This document shows, piece by piece, positions 23,359 through 63,150 of a stretch of 64,000 bases of DNA. Location of the stretch: positions 1-64,000 of the forward strand of contig JAQWPT010000034.1 of NCBI GenBank assembly GCA_029245245.1, written 5' to 3'. The notes under the pieces are model-generated. The model worked only from the letters and a program-made list of their open reading frames with translations. It was not told the DNA's origin and searched no databases. Position numbers and translations under genes: made by a program. Position 1 is the first letter of the stretch. Every line of letters starts with the position of its first letter. The DNA comes from Phycisphaerales bacterium. GTDB lineage: Bacteria; Planctomycetota; Phycisphaerae; Phycisphaerales; SM1A02.

Positions 23359-24246
23359 TCAGCCGCAATCACCCCAGACATCAAGAATCGCAAGCAGGTC
23401 ACTGATGTCGACGGCACCGTCGCCGTTCATATCCTCGATACAACCACTGCATGCACCCCAGCTGCTGATCACGTTCAACAGGTCATTTACATCAACTGCT
23501 CCGTCACCATCGGTATCCCCGTCACACTCGTCGGAAGGACACGTATGGTCGCTGCCGCAGACCGATCCAGGGCCATGGAACGTGGTGCCGATGCCGCTCT
23601 CGCAGTTGTACTGTGGGACTTCGGCGCAGTAGCCGTTGGACAGGCAGCAGGCACCGATCGGGGAATCGATGTCGACCACCAGGGACAGCCTTGCGCCACC
23701 GGGCCAGGAGTTCATGACATTCACCCCGGAGGTGGTGGACACGTACAGGCAGATGACCAGGCCATCTTCTGTCCGAGCCGCCTCGATCTGGCTGGCGGGA
23801 ATGTTGAACGAGAAGCCGCCTCCCCACATGTAGAAATAGTTCGACCAGGAGGGGGAGTTCATGACCGAATACGCCAGGGTCGTCGTCAGGGAAGAGCTGG
23901 CGGGCTTCACCGAGAAGGTCGCATTGCCTCCCATGTCGTTGTACTCGGTCACGCCCTTGAAGGACGCACTGGACACGGTGGCATTTTCCGGCAGGTCCGA
24001 GAGGTCGAAGAGCCAGAGGGCAGCCCCCTTGCTCTGGACGCAACTGCCGTAGACCGTCTGGCAGTTCTGCGTATTCGTGTAGCTGCCGTCTCCATACGAA
24101 CCCAGTGCATTCCATGTGCAGCAACTCGTCGCTCCGAGTCTGTTCGTCTGGGACCAGGGAATTTCGATCGTCTCCTGGGCTCCGCCGAAGGCGGAAGACG
24201 ACCACATGATCGTGGCAAGAAATGCAACTGATGCGAAGCGTTTCAT
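23359..24246 (-). CDS. Secreted protein with Cys-rich module and dockerin repeats
   Basis: 295 aa. A signal peptide (MKRFASVAFLATIMWSSSAFG) precedes a beta-rich domain of about 170 residues. Residues about 194-240 are a six-cysteine module starting GACC. The C-terminus has two dockerin-like calcium loops: DTDGDGAVDVNDLLNVI and DMNGDGAVDISDLLAIL, ending WGDCG. It is a paralogue of the broken gene just upstream; the two lie head to tail with no gap. The function of the N-terminal domain is unknown. Dockerins classically bind cohesins, but none is visible here. Confidence 0.85.
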   Translation of the reverse strand: MKRFASVAFLATIMWSSSAFGGAQETIEIPWSQTNRLGATSCCTWNALGSYGDGSYTNTQNCQTVYGSCVQSKGAALWLFDLSDLPENATVSSASFKGVTEYNDMGGNATFSVKPASSSLTTTLAYSVMNSPSWSNYFYMWGGGFSFNIPASQIEAARTEDGLVICLYVSTTSGVNVMNSWPGGARLSLVVDIDSPIGACCLSNGYCAEVPQYNCESGIGTTFHGPGSVCGSDHTCPSDECDGDTDGDGAVDVNDLLNVISSWGACSGCIEDMNGDGAVDISDLLAILDVWGDCG

Positions 24247-25118
24247 TGGCATGTACCCCAATTGTCCATGACGTTGAGAAGATCACTGATATCGACCGAT
24301 CCACTGCCATCCAAGTCGGCAGCACAATCGGCACACGGTCCCCAGGCACTGATCACAGCGAGCAGGTCGATCACATTGACCTGGCCGTCATCGTCGATGT
24401 CACCGTCGCACCCATCGGACGGACAGGTGCTGTCCGATCCACACGTCGAGCCCGGTCCGTAGAAGACGGTGTTCTGTCCATTTTCACACGTGTGCTGGGG
24501 AAGTTCGGCGCAGTAGCCGTTGGACAGGCAGCATGCTCCAATCGGCGAGATGCCGTTGATGATGATGCGAGGCGCGAGATTGCCGTAGTTGATGTAGGAC
24601 ACCCCGCTCCACGCGCTACTGGAAATCTGGGTGCAGATGTAGCCACCAGCCAGGCCTTCCACAAGGACTTCCGACGTGAGTTCGTACGAGATCTGGGATC
24701 CCGTGTACGACTGGGACAGGAGCATCATGTCCCCGTTCGTCCGCATTTCACTGCAGTAGGACGAACTCAGGATCTGGTTGTCCGCATCGATGTAGATTCC
24801 GCAGTAGTCCTCGAAACTGGTCTGCGGATGATTCCAGGTGAAGGTCGCTGCACTCACCTCGAATCCCTCGGGGAGGGCATCGGCAATCTCGAATCACCAC
24901 GCAACGCGCCGCCTCGACTGCCCACAACCGTAGATTCCGAAATCCTGGCAGGTCATGCCCGACAGGTACGAGGTGTTGCTGTTCTGGTAGGTAGTCGGAC
25001 TGCAGCACGAACTGTCGTCGATGACGCCCGATTGCACCGGGTACACGACGATCTGCTCAGTTCCCGCCAGTACGGTTCCAGCCGACAGCAGCAGTGGTAA
25101 TACGATCGCAACTCTCAT
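24243..25118 (-). pseudogene. Secreted dockerin protein broken by an in-frame TGA
   Basis: A start at 25118 has an AGGAGA ribosome-binding site and encodes a signal peptide (MRVAIVLPLLLSAGTVLAG). The frame meets TGA at 24894-24896 and continues in the same frame to 24243 with an intact domain, a GACC six-cysteine module and two dockerin loops (DIDDDGQVNVIDLLAVI, DLDGSGSVDISDLLNVM). Alignment with the intact paralogue downstream puts the TGA where that protein has Leu in ALWLFDL. A single base change from TTA would explain it. Real nonsense mutation, consensus error and read-through are all possible. Confidence 0.8.
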
Positions 25119-35993: not shown

Positions 35994-37523
35994 CTACGGG
36001 CAGTCACCCCACCCGCCAATCACGATCAACAGGTCCTCGACATTGACGACCCCGTCGAGATTCGCATCGGCGCTGCAGGTGCCGGTGCAGGCCCATTGAC
36101 CAATCACCAGCAGCAGGTCGTCGACCGTGACCATTCCGTCACCGTTGATATCCCCTTCGCACGGCTGCTCATCACAGGCTCCAGACACGCAGGTGGTCCC
36201 CATGCCCATCCACTGGGCTCCGAAGGCGAGACAGGTGCTCTCCACGAGTTCGGTGCAGTTGCCTGTTGCAAGGCAGCACGCGCCAAGTGGTTGCGGGCAG
36301 CCCGCGTCGAGGCAACTTGTGGAATCGCCCTGGAAGGCACCACCGCCAAGATCGCAGAGTTCCGGAGTCACCGCGTCCACGCAGCCTCCATCGGGAAGAC
36401 AGCAGGCTCCCTCCGGGAAGCAGATGAAGTCGGAGCAGGATTCGGTGCCGTAGAACAGTCCGCCACCGAGGCTGCACAGTTCGGCATCCACCTCGATGCA
36501 TTCGCCGGTGGACTCGACGCAGCAGGCACCCGTCGGCGGCGGGCAGGTAATGTCGCCGCACTCGACGAGGTCACCCTGGTAGGTCCCACCGATGGTGTCG
36601 CAGTCCTCCTCCGTGAATCCGTCGGAGCAGGTCCCGTTCCCTCGGCAGCAGGCACCGATTGCCGGCGCGCAGCCCTGGGGAGTCACCGAAGCACGGATGA
36701 CCCAGTCACCACTTGGCCGACAGAATGACGGCAGGGACTGGAAGTTCAACCAGCCCTCTCCGCACAGGCAGAAGGTGCCCGTCACCAGGTCGACCCAGTT
36801 TCCGGAGGGAGCCCCCAGTCCACTGGTATCGGTGCAGAGAAAGGCGTTGTTGTTCGGGTTTGGAGCCTGGATGCAGGGAGTTCCCGGCTCGTTGTGCTCA
36901 TCGATGCGGATCCCGACCGAAAAGCCATGGCTGCCATCGTCCTCGATGTAGATCTGGTCCGGATCCTGGGGATCCACGAAGAACTGCAGGATCGTGCCGG
37001 TCGTTCCCGGTGGCATCACCAGGTGCGGCAGGATGACGTCGTCCGATGAAAACTCGGCCACCAGGCTCCCGCTTCCGGGAGCGCCCTGGTAGATACGGAC
37101 CGTCCACTGGGTCGTAGTCTGCCCAATGGCGCTGGACGTCGCGAACAGCACCTCGAAGAGGTCCAGCCGAAGTGGAAACTTGTCTGCGGGCAGCGTGTAG
37201 GAAGCAGCCGCGGTTTCGCCTGAGACCATGCCCATCTGCAGAACGTACTCGCCCGGCCCCCAGTCGGAATCGGTGTGCGTCCACGATTCCTGCGGACATT
37301 CACCCCGTGTTGCTGCGGGCATGTTGATCACTTCCACCGCTGCGGGATCGATCGGCTGCCCCGGAGCCTGCTTCTTCAGCAACGACGGCCGCAGGATGAT
37401 GCGCTGGATGGTGACATCCGTCAGCGTCTCCTGGAGAGGAGCGCGAGTTCCTTCCTGGGCGAACGCCAGGGATGGGACAGCAAGTACTGCAGCAGCGATG
37501 ATCGAATGGTGGCGTCTGGTCAC
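35994..37523 (-). CDS. Secreted protein with four Cys-rich modules and dockerin repeats
   Basis: 509 aa from a GTG at 37523, which has GGAGG eight bases upstream. Signal peptide, then a beta-sandwich-like domain (about 60-270). Next come four tandem six-cysteine modules of about 40 residues, each opening with GACC (about 278, 317, 356, 395), with spacing like that of the single modules in the genes at 23-25 kb. The C-terminus has two dockerin loops (DINGDGMVTVDDLLLVIG and DANLDGVVNVEDLLIVIG), ending WGDCP. Likely a surface or matrix protein; binding partner unknown. Confidence 0.85.
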   Translation of the reverse strand: MTRRHHSIIAAAVLAVPSLAFAQEGTRAPLQETLTDVTIQRIILRPSLLKKQAPGQPIDPAAVEVINMPAATRGECPQESWTHTDSDWGPGEYVLQMGMVSGETAAASYTLPADKFPLRLDLFEVLFATSSAIGQTTTQWTVRIYQGAPGSGSLVAEFSSDDVILPHLVMPPGTTGTILQFFVDPQDPDQIYIEDDGSHGFSVGIRIDEHNEPGTPCIQAPNPNNNAFLCTDTSGLGAPSGNWVDLVTGTFCLCGEGWLNFQSLPSFCRPSGDWVIRASVTPQGCAPAIGACCRGNGTCSDGFTEEDCDTIGGTYQGDLVECGDITCPPPTGACCVESTGECIEVDAELCSLGGGLFYGTESCSDFICFPEGACCLPDGGCVDAVTPELCDLGGGAFQGDSTSCLDAGCPQPLGACCLATGNCTELVESTCLAFGAQWMGMGTTCVSGACDEQPCEGDINGDGMVTVDDLLLVIGQWACTGTCSADANLDGVVNVEDLLIVIGGWGDCP

Positions 37524-43009: not shown

Positions 43010-44671
43010 TCACGGAGTACCGGCACCCCAGTTGCCAATGACCAGCAGCAGGTCGTTCACGTTGACCGCCAGGTCACCGTTGACATCGCCCTGGCAGAAG
43101 AAACCCGCACAGGCCCAGTCGCCGAGGACCAGCAGAAGATCTTCCACGCCGACGTGACCGTCCCCGTTGGCGTCACCGACCAGAATCGTACCGTCGATCG
43201 AGAAGACCGAGTCGCTGTCATCGGATCCGATGTTCCCGTCGGCATCGCTCACCATGACGCGAATGATCGCCTGGTCGGTGTCGATGTCCGGCACGGACCA
43301 GAACCAGGACCCGTCGTCGGCGGTACCGGCGATGAGGGTCTCGAAACTTGCCCCGCCGTCGGCGGACAACAGGATGTCGGCCGACCGGCTTCCAAGCACA
43401 TCGTCGTCATCGCTGATCCAGCTGATCTCGACGACATCACCGGGGTCGTAGGTCGAACCATTGTTCTGCGAACGGAGGTACGCCACTGGATTCGTACCCC
43501 CGGAATTGGCAGGGATGTGCATGCTGATGCAGTGGAACACGCCCGCGGAATACGCGAGGCTGTCACCCCAGATCTGCACCACGGTCCTGCCCGGCATCGC
43601 CGCCTGCACGACCGCGAGCGCGTTGCTGTCCCACGATGAACTCAGATCGCTGTACTTGGGGAGCAGGACCAGGTCATTGCAGATCACCATGTTGGTGTAG
43701 GTGTAGTGCGTCCAGCCGGACGTGTAGGAGTTCGTCCGGTACACGTCCCAACCAATGGACTGGTAGTACGCGGCGGCGTCATCACAGATGTTGTCCTGGG
43801 TGCTGCCGGAATGGTTGGGCCAGTCCGAAATGATGATCGACTCGTCTCCGACGATCTGCATCCACATGTCGATGTGCTGCGTGGAGTCCACCGAGGTCGG
43901 AAACGGCGTGTGGAATTCGGTGTCGACGTTCTGGTAGTCCTTCCAGATCTGCCAGATCTGGGCTTCCGAGTAGCCGGGGTTCTCGTTGTTGATCAATCGC
44001 GTCGCAGCCGATGGGCCCGCTCCGCTGACGTGGTAGTTGCCTCCGCCATGGGTCAATGCGTGGCGGTAGTAGCCGAAGTTCATCGCGTCGGCGTAGTGGT
44101 AGTTGAAGTCGTCATCGTTGGGGCGAGGTCGGTTGTAGTTGTGATCCACCACTGCCCGGCAACCACCCTCGTAGATCATCCGAGGGCCGTAGTCCCGGAT
44201 CCAGACCGTATCGGTGCTTCGTACCAGCGTGATGATCCGATTCGGATCCGCACCCTGGGCAATCATGCTGTTGCGGGCCGAGTTGGCCTCGCTGCTTGAA
44301 TCGCAGGCGACGTAGACGTTCGCATTTCCCGTGGTGGTAATCTGGGCCGCCATCTCGGCGATGGTGCTGGTGAAGCTCTCCCAGGCAAGAACGATGCCGT
44401 CCATGGGCTCGTATTCCGATGCGCAGGTGATGGGCCCCAACGGCGCGGGTGTGGAGGGCAATCCTCGGGTGTCGTGATGAGAATCAAGCCAACGCTGCTC
44501 GACATCAGTCATGTACTTGGGAATGGTGGCTCCCTCGGGAAACACCAACTCCCCATCGACGATGTCAGGCTGGTCCTGGCTCGCCGGACGTGACATCGAA
44601 GTCGAACCAGCGAGTGTTCCAGCAAGAACCAAGGTTCCCGGAATGATCAGGGACAGGGCACGAATGGGCAT
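43010..44671 (-). CDS. Secreted peptidyl-arginine/agmatine deiminase-family enzyme with dockerin repeats
   Basis: 553 aa. Signal peptide, propeptide-like stretch, then a guanidino-group hydrolase domain from about 80 to 390. Its catalytic residues are in place: Asp160 in VWIRDYGP, His266/Asp268 in HIDMW and Cys381 in FHCISMHIP; HGGGN near 208 fits too. This is the Porphyromonas-type family, which includes agmatine deiminase and PPAD. A beta domain (about 395-490) and two dockerin loops (DANGDGHVGVEDLLLVLG, DVNGDLAVNVNDLLLVIG) follow. Export and the dockerin tail argue for an extracellular arginine or protein substrate rather than polyamine metabolism. Confidence 0.88.
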   Translation of the reverse strand: MPIRALSLIIPGTLVLAGTLAGSTSMSRPASQDQPDIVDGELVFPEGATIPKYMTDVEQRWLDSHHDTRGLPSTPAPLGPITCASEYEPMDGIVLAWESFTSTIAEMAAQITTTGNANVYVACDSSSEANSARNSMIAQGADPNRIITLVRSTDTVWIRDYGPRMIYEGGCRAVVDHNYNRPRPNDDDFNYHYADAMNFGYYRHALTHGGGNYHVSGAGPSAATRLINNENPGYSEAQIWQIWKDYQNVDTEFHTPFPTSVDSTQHIDMWMQIVGDESIIISDWPNHSGSTQDNICDDAAAYYQSIGWDVYRTNSYTSGWTHYTYTNMVICNDLVLLPKYSDLSSSWDSNALAVVQAAMPGRTVVQIWGDSLAYSAGVFHCISMHIPANSGGTNPVAYLRSQNNGSTYDPGDVVEISWISDDDDVLGSRSADILLSADGGASFETLIAGTADDGSWFWSVPDIDTDQAIIRVMVSDADGNIGSDDSDSVFSIDGTILVGDANGDGHVGVEDLLLVLGDWACAGFFCQGDVNGDLAVNVNDLLLVIGNWGAGTP

Positions 44672-61027: not shown

Positions 61028-61230
61028 GACGTCACCTTTCATTCATCTTGAGAAAATGCGGCCGCTGGGCCGCGAAGCGGGGATTGTACGCCATTCCACG
61101 GCGTCCAGTTCGCAATGTTCCCGCCCTGATCAAAGGAACAGTAGAACAGGAAAAACGGCCAATATTCCTTCAGTGATTACTGATTTGCAGCATATTGACA
61201 GTAGTCGTGGGGGCTCAACGCAGGAACGAC

Positions 61231-63150
61231 ATGCCCATGCACCACCACTCAAGACGGCGTCAGGTCACCCCGACGCGTCCCTTCTCCTGCCTTCTGTTGT
61301 CCCTGGCGGCGGCCACCCTCTGCGTGCCGGCGATGGCGGAACTGTCCGAGCACCATGTCCTGCTGCTCTACAACAGCAAGGTGCCCGTTTCGCTGGCCAT
61401 CCGCGACGCCTACATCGGGCACCATCCCGGCGTCCACCAATTCGACCTCGACCTGTCCTACCCCGTGACCGACGAGAACTGGCCCGACTCGACTCCTCCA
61501 CCGGAGGGTCTGACCAACCACTACATCACCTCGGCCAGGTTCACCGAACTCTTTGTTGATGATGACAGCGCCTTCCAGCAGTACCTCACCGCGAATCCCG
61601 AAGTTGTCGCCATTGCCACCACCCGCGGTCTGCCCGCAGTGGTCAGTGACAACTTTGCTCCGCCGGTCAACCACGATGCACCGTCCACCGAGAACATCTG
61701 GGGCAGTTTTGAAGGACTCCTCTCCCGCTCGGGAACCGGTATCTATTCCTGGCAGGATGGGACAACGACTTCGCGGCAGAATCCGTACCTGGGGAGTCAG
61801 CTTCCTTTCCTGGAGGCCCTGGATCTGTGTGGAGAACACGATGGCATCTGCCCCGGCGAGCTGTACCTCGCCTCACGACTCGACTCCAGTCGCTGCATCA
61901 TCGACTACGACGACGATGGAACACGCACGTACCTTGATGGCGTGCTGGCGCTCATCGACCGTTGCGCCGAACCGATTCCGGTCAACACGTACGCCACGAC
62001 GATGGTCTACGACGACAATCCTCCGGAAGGCACACCCGGCGCCGATCAATGGTGTACCCACGGAATCAAGATCCCCTACCAATTCGAACTCTCCCAGGTC
62101 TCCTTCTGGCGGGACAACTGGTGCCAGATGGAGGACAAGACCGAGCAGTTCCTGCACGGTTCCAATCATGATGCTTATGACCCCGAGACGGACGGCCCCT
62201 TCATGGAATACCCACTGGTCAGCCTGATCACGATGGGGCGGAATCATTGCGGAAGTCGTGACAATCCGGACGAACCTGCGTCATACGACTACATCCGAAG
62301 ATACACGGCGCACCCTGCAGGCTTCTTCAACAGCATCGAGTCCTACAACGGTCAGTGTCTGCACAAGTTCAACGCATCCCCTGACGGCCACGGCCAGGTG
62401 CTGGACTGGATCGGCTACGCCGGCGGTTCGTTCGCGACCGGACACGTCCAGGGCGTAGATACAGGAGAGTTCACCCAGACCTTCATCGGCATGCAGAACC
62501 TCTACCACAACGGTTTCAGCTGGGGCGAAGCCGTCTACACCTTTCTGAAGGTGGGTGGATACAACTCCCCCATCGGTGATCCGCTGGCCCGCACGGTGCT
62601 CATCCGACCGGACATCAACAATGACTTTGTCGTCAACGATGACGACCGGGAGATCGTGATTGCACACATGGGCACGAGTGGCCCCGAAGGTGACGTCGAT
62701 GGCAGTGGTCTCGTCGATGAGGCGGACCTGGCCGAAATCGACATCGCCTTTGGTCGCGAACGACCCGACATTGAAATTCCGGACCCCTACACAGGACTTG
62801 GTGCCTGCGGTGACGTGAACTGGGACGGAGTGACCGACGTCGGGGACATACTCATGATCATTTCCTGGTGGGGTGAATGCCCCCTGCAGGGCGACTGCCA
62901 TGCAGACACTGACGGCGACTACCAGGTTGCAGTCAATGACCTGCTCACCGTGATTTCCAAGTGGGGCTGGCTCCCCGGCGACCTGGATGGTGACGGTGAC
63001 ATCGATGTCAACGACCTGCTGATGATCATCGAGATGCTCGGCGCTGTTCCCGGCGACGAGAACTGGAACGAACAGGCGGACACGAACTGCAACGGCATCA
63101 TTGAAATCGTCGACATGGCCTACATCATGGTAATCGTGGATACGAGCTGA
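61231..63150 (+). CDS. Secreted protein with multiple dockerin-like repeats, possibly TIGR03790-type
   Basis: 639 aa from the ATG at 61231 with AGGAA five bases upstream. Signal peptide near residues 10-36, then a conserved domain of about 400 residues starting VLLLYNSKVPVSLAIRDAY. This beginning resembles the uncharacterised TIGR03790 family (valine/leucine-rich strand, YN, then SLAI); the match is tentative. The last 180 residues hold five or six calcium-loop repeats (DINNDFVVNDDD, DVDGSGLVDEAD, DVNWDGVTDVGD, DTDGDYQVAVND, DLDGDGDIDVND). The next gene is a close paralogue 2 bp away. The region upstream (61043-61230) is A+T-rich and holds the promoter. Confidence 0.85.
   Translation: MPMHHHSRRRQVTPTRPFSCLLLSLAAATLCVPAMAELSEHHVLLLYNSKVPVSLAIRDAYIGHHPGVHQFDLDLSYPVTDENWPDSTPPPEGLTNHYITSARFTELFVDDDSAFQQYLTANPEVVAIATTRGLPAVVSDNFAPPVNHDAPSTENIWGSFEGLLSRSGTGIYSWQDGTTTSRQNPYLGSQLPFLEALDLCGEHDGICPGELYLASRLDSSRCIIDYDDDGTRTYLDGVLALIDRCAEPIPVNTYATTMVYDDNPPEGTPGADQWCTHGIKIPYQFELSQVSFWRDNWCQMEDKTEQFLHGSNHDAYDPETDGPFMEYPLVSLITMGRNHCGSRDNPDEPASYDYIRRYTAHPAGFFNSIESYNGQCLHKFNASPDGHGQVLDWIGYAGGSFATGHVQGVDTGEFTQTFIGMQNLYHNGFSWGEAVYTFLKVGGYNSPIGDPLARTVLIRPDINNDFVVNDDDREIVIAHMGTSGPEGDVDGSGLVDEADLAEIDIAFGRERPDIEIPDPYTGLGACGDVNWDGVTDVGDILMIISWWGECPLQGDCHADTDGDYQVAVNDLLTVISKWGWLPGDLDGDGDIDVNDLLMIIEMLGAVPGDENWNEQADTNCNGIIEIVDMAYIMVIVDTS

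Follow-up and report, generated by a model that had tools for sequence, protein, structure and literature searches.

The pairing of a gingipain protease with a peptidyl-arginine deiminase is known mainly from gum disease (Porphyromonas). In P. gingivalis, gingipain R creates C-terminal arginines and the deiminase PPAD modifies them, as described in a study that also sets out the domain layout of PPAD (PMC4893104). The same study assigns to Arg152 and Arg154 of PPAD the binding of a C-terminal arginine through its carboxylate, and reports that mutants of these residues have lower activity on most substrates tested. Bacterial genes of this type are more widespread than had been thought, according to a phylogenetic paper (PMC8826395); judged by titles, the literature yielded nothing on PPAD-type enzymes of planctomycetes, nor on any with a dockerin tail. 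For planctomycetes, a dockerin-based extracellular peptidase assembly has been proposed, the "Planctosome" of Nemodlikiaceae, whose model uses cohesin-bearing anchor/adaptor proteins and M12B/M14 peptidases (PMC6461901).

The gene described here lies in a 64-kb stretch of DNA from a Phycisphaerales bacterium, the whole of which we call the window. Its product resembles PPAD (PDB 4ytb, 4yt9, and 5ak7) in the catalytic residues, the Arg152/Arg154 pair, the order of catalytic and Ig-like domains, and the presence of an N-terminal export signal. In contrast, identity between the two is about 20%–27%, the window protein comes from another phylum and carries a dockerin-like tail where PPAD has a type IX secretion system (T9SS) C-terminal domain, and it has Ser263/Thr264 where PPAD has Tyr233/Ile234. 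We consider it fairly probable that the gene product is a secreted PPAD-type peptidyl-arginine deiminase that prefers peptides ending in arginine, with a gingipain-R-like protease as their supplier.

Gene, domains, and family placement

The open reading frame at 43010–44671 of the window (minus strand) starts with ATG and encodes 553 amino acids plus a stop. The initial annotation described this gene as an exported peptidyl-arginine/agmatine deiminase with a dockerin tail; the observation is confirmed, and the ORF lies exactly where it had been placed. The Pfam model PAD_porph matches residues 98–387 with 110.6 bits (cut-off 25); on the combined evidence of Pfam, PDB search, alignment, and structure model, the catalytic domain covers residues 73–391 (43499–44455, minus strand). 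The catalytic residues that had been named, Asp160, His266, Asp268, and Cys381, are all present and correctly numbered (PPAD Asp130, His236, Asp238, and Cys351), and a fifth, Asn327 (PPAD Asn297), is present as well. Each of the five is invariant across the alignment (89 of 89 rows, one of them the window protein).

The N-terminus (residues 1–28; 44588–44671, minus strand), MPIRALSLIIPGTLVLAGTLAG..., reads as a signal peptide, as had been annotated; this call is a reading of the sequence and of the hydrophobic N-termini of relatives, and the segment has mostly low pLDDT. Such a signal peptide would take the deiminase out of the cytoplasm. The C-terminal beta domain of the initial annotation is likewise found, as strands at residues 396–492 modeled with high confidence. 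By the model and structure comparison, an Ig-like domain spanning residues 392–494 (43190–43498, minus strand) follows the catalytic domain in the position of the PPAD IgLF.

The AlphaFold2 model, built from the 89-row alignment, has a mean pLDDT of 93.0 and comprises an uncertain N-terminus, the catalytic domain to approximately residue 391, the Ig-like strands, and a two-helix dockerin-like tail. Foldseek ranks 1–7 are all PPAD entries, with 445–448 aligned columns that take in both domains. For the catalytic domain, PPAD scores Z 40.7 over 308 residues and the AguA-like structure 1xkn Z 39.8; structure comparison of the model thus agrees with a PPAD-like protein, but structure alone hardly separates PPAD from AguA here. 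The structure 6i0x aligns to model residues 70–495 at an overall rmsd of 12.3 Å, indicating that the two domains are angled differently in the model and in the crystal.

Sequence gives a clearer separation. PPAD chains are the top matches of a PDB sequence search (1e-29 to 1e-28), the best non-PPAD chain reaching 6e-11, and the two NCBIfam agmatine deiminase models match with 57.7 and 58.9 bits vs cut-offs of 381.8 and 483. The initial annotation had suggested phylogeny against agmatine deiminases and PPAD as a check. In a maximum-likelihood tree of 67 chosen rows, a branch with 100/100 support places the 19 agmatine deiminases on one side and the 48 other proteins, including PPAD and the window protein, on the other. 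On this exported side the window clade and the PPAD-containing clade are joined at 96/91; support for where PPAD falls within its clade is low (81/50 and 94/64).

The AguA enzymes (TIGR03380; PDB 2jer and 3h7c) share the fold and the catalytic Asp/His/Asp/Asn/Cys with the window protein. They differ in forming a separate clade and in their substrate motifs, and the planctomycete AguA rows have neither export signal nor tail. The agmatine deiminase motifs NAWGGK, LEGG, and DTDGH are absent from the window protein; the Glu of LEGG, present in 37 of 37 AguA rows, is replaced by Gly209 in the window protein and by Thr in PPAD. One could still suppose that the gene encodes a true cytosolic agmatine deiminase whose tail is an assembly or annotation artefact, given that PF04371 membership takes in agmatine deiminases and that the AguA models do match at low score. 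This grouping had been named as the outcome that would overturn the initial annotation, and the tree gave the opposite result. The 100/100 split and the NCBIfam scores rule the supposition out, the tail is read in one unbroken frame, and two relatives (L084 and L085) carry the same domain order; the tree and the conserved tails refute it, leaving it a probability close to nil. The evidence supports a PPAD-like rather than AguA-like planctomycete protein, predicted to be exported by its N-terminus, whose tail differs from that of PPAD.

The catalytic domain has dN/dS of ∼0.13–0.23 against four relatives, and the gene is under purifying selection. It is the sole PF04371 member in the 2.69-Mb genome. 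The protein is not an isolated case: A single scan confirmed at least 572 relatives.

Predicted substrate preference

The enzyme would convert arginine to citrulline and ammonia via Cys381, with Asp160, His266, Asp268, and Asn327 taking part. In the alignment, the counterparts of PPAD Arg152/Arg154 are Arg181 and Arg183, in the motif YNRPRP (residues 179–184; 44120–44137, minus strand). Arg183 is invariant (89/89 aligned rows) and Arg181 nearly so (81/89), whereas among 37 agmatine deiminase rows the same two columns hold arginine in one and two rows only. As a putative carboxylate clamp, Arg181 and Arg183 would grip an arginine at the peptide C-terminus by its free carboxylate, which would make peptides ending in arginine, and perhaps free arginine, the preferred substrates. 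On sequence grounds we predict a secreted C-terminal-arginine deiminase and not a general protein citrullinase. The initial annotation proposed citrullination of proteins outside the cell; this needs correcting, as the retained arginine pair predicts peptides with C-terminal arginine as substrates instead of intact proteins in general.

The residues at the pocket entrance differ from those of PPAD, and specificity could therefore have shifted. In PPAD, Tyr233 is a further contact of the carboxylate and Ile234 is part of the pocket lining; the excerpted text treats both as details of the PPAD pocket and does not name them as family-defining (PMC4893104). With Ser263 and Thr264 at these places, one might think of a citrullinase of internal arginines, similar to animal PADs and acting on proteins at the surface of the producing cell or of other cells. 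Such an activity appears quite improbable, given that the arginine pair for a free carboxylate is kept, that the window protein has no Pfam match to the N or middle domain of animal-type PADs, and that human PADs match the model at a Z of only about 25. These residues are best read as those of a probable C-terminal-arginine deiminase whose pocket entrance departs somewhat from that of PPAD.

The enzyme could also be an exported deiminase of small molecules that releases ammonia from free arginine or agmatine, as a nitrogen source or for a rise in pH, with no role on peptides. Its catalytic core is common to agmatine deiminases and the fold alone is compatible with this activity, PF04371 is represented by this one gene in the genome, many relatives occur without a gingipain-like protease, and free arginine likewise bears a carboxylate. 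Against this, the AguA motifs are missing, the PPAD arginine pair is kept, and the NCBIfam score lies far under the cut-off; we regard a purely small-molecule function as unlikely, and retain C-terminal arginines of peptides as the predicted target.

A deeper group of exported relatives (L045, L070, L072, and L074) has lost the first arginine, with YPTRP or YSSRP in place of NRPRP. Genomes of the family that have only such distant deiminase matches are without a gingipain-like protease, the motif having been read in the fetched loci only.

The dockerin-like tail

Residues 495–553 (43013–43189, minus strand) form a dockerin-like tail with two Ca-loop repeats, DANGDGHVGVED and DVNGDLAVNVND. The dockerin pair of the initial annotation stands insofar as both repeats are visible and close relatives share the tail; the Pfam match to Dockerin_1, however, is below threshold (19.1 bits, cut-off 22.9), and the NCBIfam model dockerin_GC, which matches several relatives, has no match on the window protein. 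Pfam finds no T9SS C-terminal domain on the protein, the dockerin-like tail being in its place; that domain marks the route of PPAD and not the enzyme family. A search for SprA_N, of type IX secretion, gave no match in the genome, and the control genomes were equally without a match.

The genome has 46 Dockerin_1 matches. Compared with the C-termini at 20 of these 46 places, the window tail has a median score of 107, and it scores the same (107) against 19 dockerin places in a different genome from this family; the C-termini were chosen by their score to the window tail, which slightly favors these genome sets, and a few picks are poor. A tail code specific to the genome is ruled out by this equality. 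Among the deiminases themselves, the 12 closest relatives score 128–189, and the C-termini of 67 relatives with less similar catalytic domains 42.5–44. Thus the catalytic part is retained among relatives, and the tail goes with the host lineage. We infer that the tail is the general address label of this lineage for exported proteins, through which the enzyme would be attached outside the cell; it would take the place of the T9SS C-terminal domain of PPAD. Three more dockerin-tailed ORFs occur in the window, at 24246–24857 (minus strand), 35997–37523 (minus strand), and 61207–63147 (plus strand), with no further Pfam domain above the cut-off.

The cohesin model PF00963 has no match in the genome and matched one of 14 control genomes; the assembly is 96.5% complete, so a divergent or missing cohesin is possible. 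Cellulosome-like docking was rejected on the lack of a cohesin in the genome. The genome thus differs from the "Planctosome" both in that no cohesin was found and in the enzymes concerned, which are C25 and PPAD-type.

Many relatives of the deiminase carry a tail that is not a dockerin, and some of the 67 less similar ones lack a dockerin altogether and end in the conserved tail described next. In L109 (2962–4548), L113, L115, L120, L121, and L130, another conserved C-terminal tail of about 115 amino acids, ending in WQAWxPNDPA...NGLxTxLG, stands where the window gene has its dockerin; the L109 tail matched no Pfam or NCBIfam model. Other tails are also found in four relatives labeled Chthonomonadaceae, Fimbriimonadaceae, and Armatimonadetes (L148, L150, L156, and L158), which form one clade with 100/100 support inside the planctomycete group, a possible case of transfer between phyla.

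A gingipain-R-like protease and its distribution

Action on C-terminal arginines would call for a partner protease. Peptides ending in arginine would be supplied by extracellular proteases, among which a dockerin-tailed, gingipain-R-like C25 protease would be the obvious supplier here. The genome has two C25 proteases. One of them (L164, 745 amino acids) consists of a propeptide, a C25 domain, and a dockerin, and matches gingipain R at 5e-72 vs 4e-11 for Lys-gingipain (Kgp). It is similar to gingipain R (RgpB, PDB 1cvr) in its propeptide, C25 domain, catalytic His/Cys, and Arg-pocket residues, and differs in its dockerin tail; the likeness in specificity is predicted from residues. Of the 25 fetched C25 rows, two are partial; the 23 that cover RgpB Asp163, His211, Cys244, Trp284, and Met288 all retain these residues. 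In published work, the P1 arginine is bound by Asp163, and Lys-gingipain has Tyr in place of Met288 (PMC4357240, PMC9559808).

We counted both enzymes in the family of this genome (181 genomes), taking deiminases at E 1e-20 or better. The deiminase is found in 79 genomes, the gingipain-R-like protease in 26, and both in 25; the single protease genome without a deiminase (G517) is 93% complete. Presence of the protease thus almost entails presence of the deiminase (25 of 26 genomes), but the converse does not apply: 54 of the 79 genomes with a deiminase have no such protease. When only close deiminases are considered (≥290 bits), the protease occurs in 24 of 39 genomes vs two of the 142 others. 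These exceptions are G667, whose deiminase match is shorter (245 bits) and which is elsewhere counted as deiminase-positive, and G517, which has no deiminase. The counts are raw and ignore kinship: The association is nested in related genera, and the seven genera of the family that hold the protease may be one clade. Fisher values for it presuppose independent genomes and are given no weight here.

In the order sample (n = 301), the deiminase accompanies the protease in 19 of 20 genomes, and in a sister family all 64 of 64 deiminase genomes are without the protease. Across the phylum sample, any C25 protease is present in seven of 17 genomes with such a deiminase, compared with 187 of 392 overall; with no enrichment, a phylum-wide linkage of C25 and deiminase was rejected.

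By analogy with P. gingivalis, we infer that the planctomycete may be able to run the two steps from gingipain R to PPAD, and the presence of deiminase and gingipain-like protease in one genome suggests that the pair may be an environmental tool for protein degradation. A more specific scheme is conceivable, though we hold it only tentatively: a Phycisphaeral extracellular two-step in which a dockerin-tailed Arg-gingipain would cut environmental proteins after arginine and a dockerin-tailed PPAD-type enzyme would citrullinate the new ends, both held on a tail receptor. If true, the oral pathogen would have one T9SS-tagged version of an older module for degrading proteins in the environment. 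The planctomycete clade is large and combines the carboxylate-reading arginines and a PPAD-like two-domain body with a near one-way link to the protease in one family. C-terminal citrullination as a chemistry of environmental protein degradation thereby becomes directly testable, and enzymes from non-pathogens are offered for comparison of specificity.

The genes for the deiminase and the gingipain-R-like protease are on separate contigs (C10 and C5). An operon around the deiminase was rejected: A neighboring MFS transporter gene lies beside six of 80 relatives, in either orientation. Other shared neighbors occur beside two to eight of the 80, chiefly in the nearest relatives; L089 and L090, which are among these loci, derive from one isolate. 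The second C25 protease of the genome (L165, 787–3477) also has a propeptide; it matches choice-of-anchor J weakly, and its dockerin-like end is shortened.
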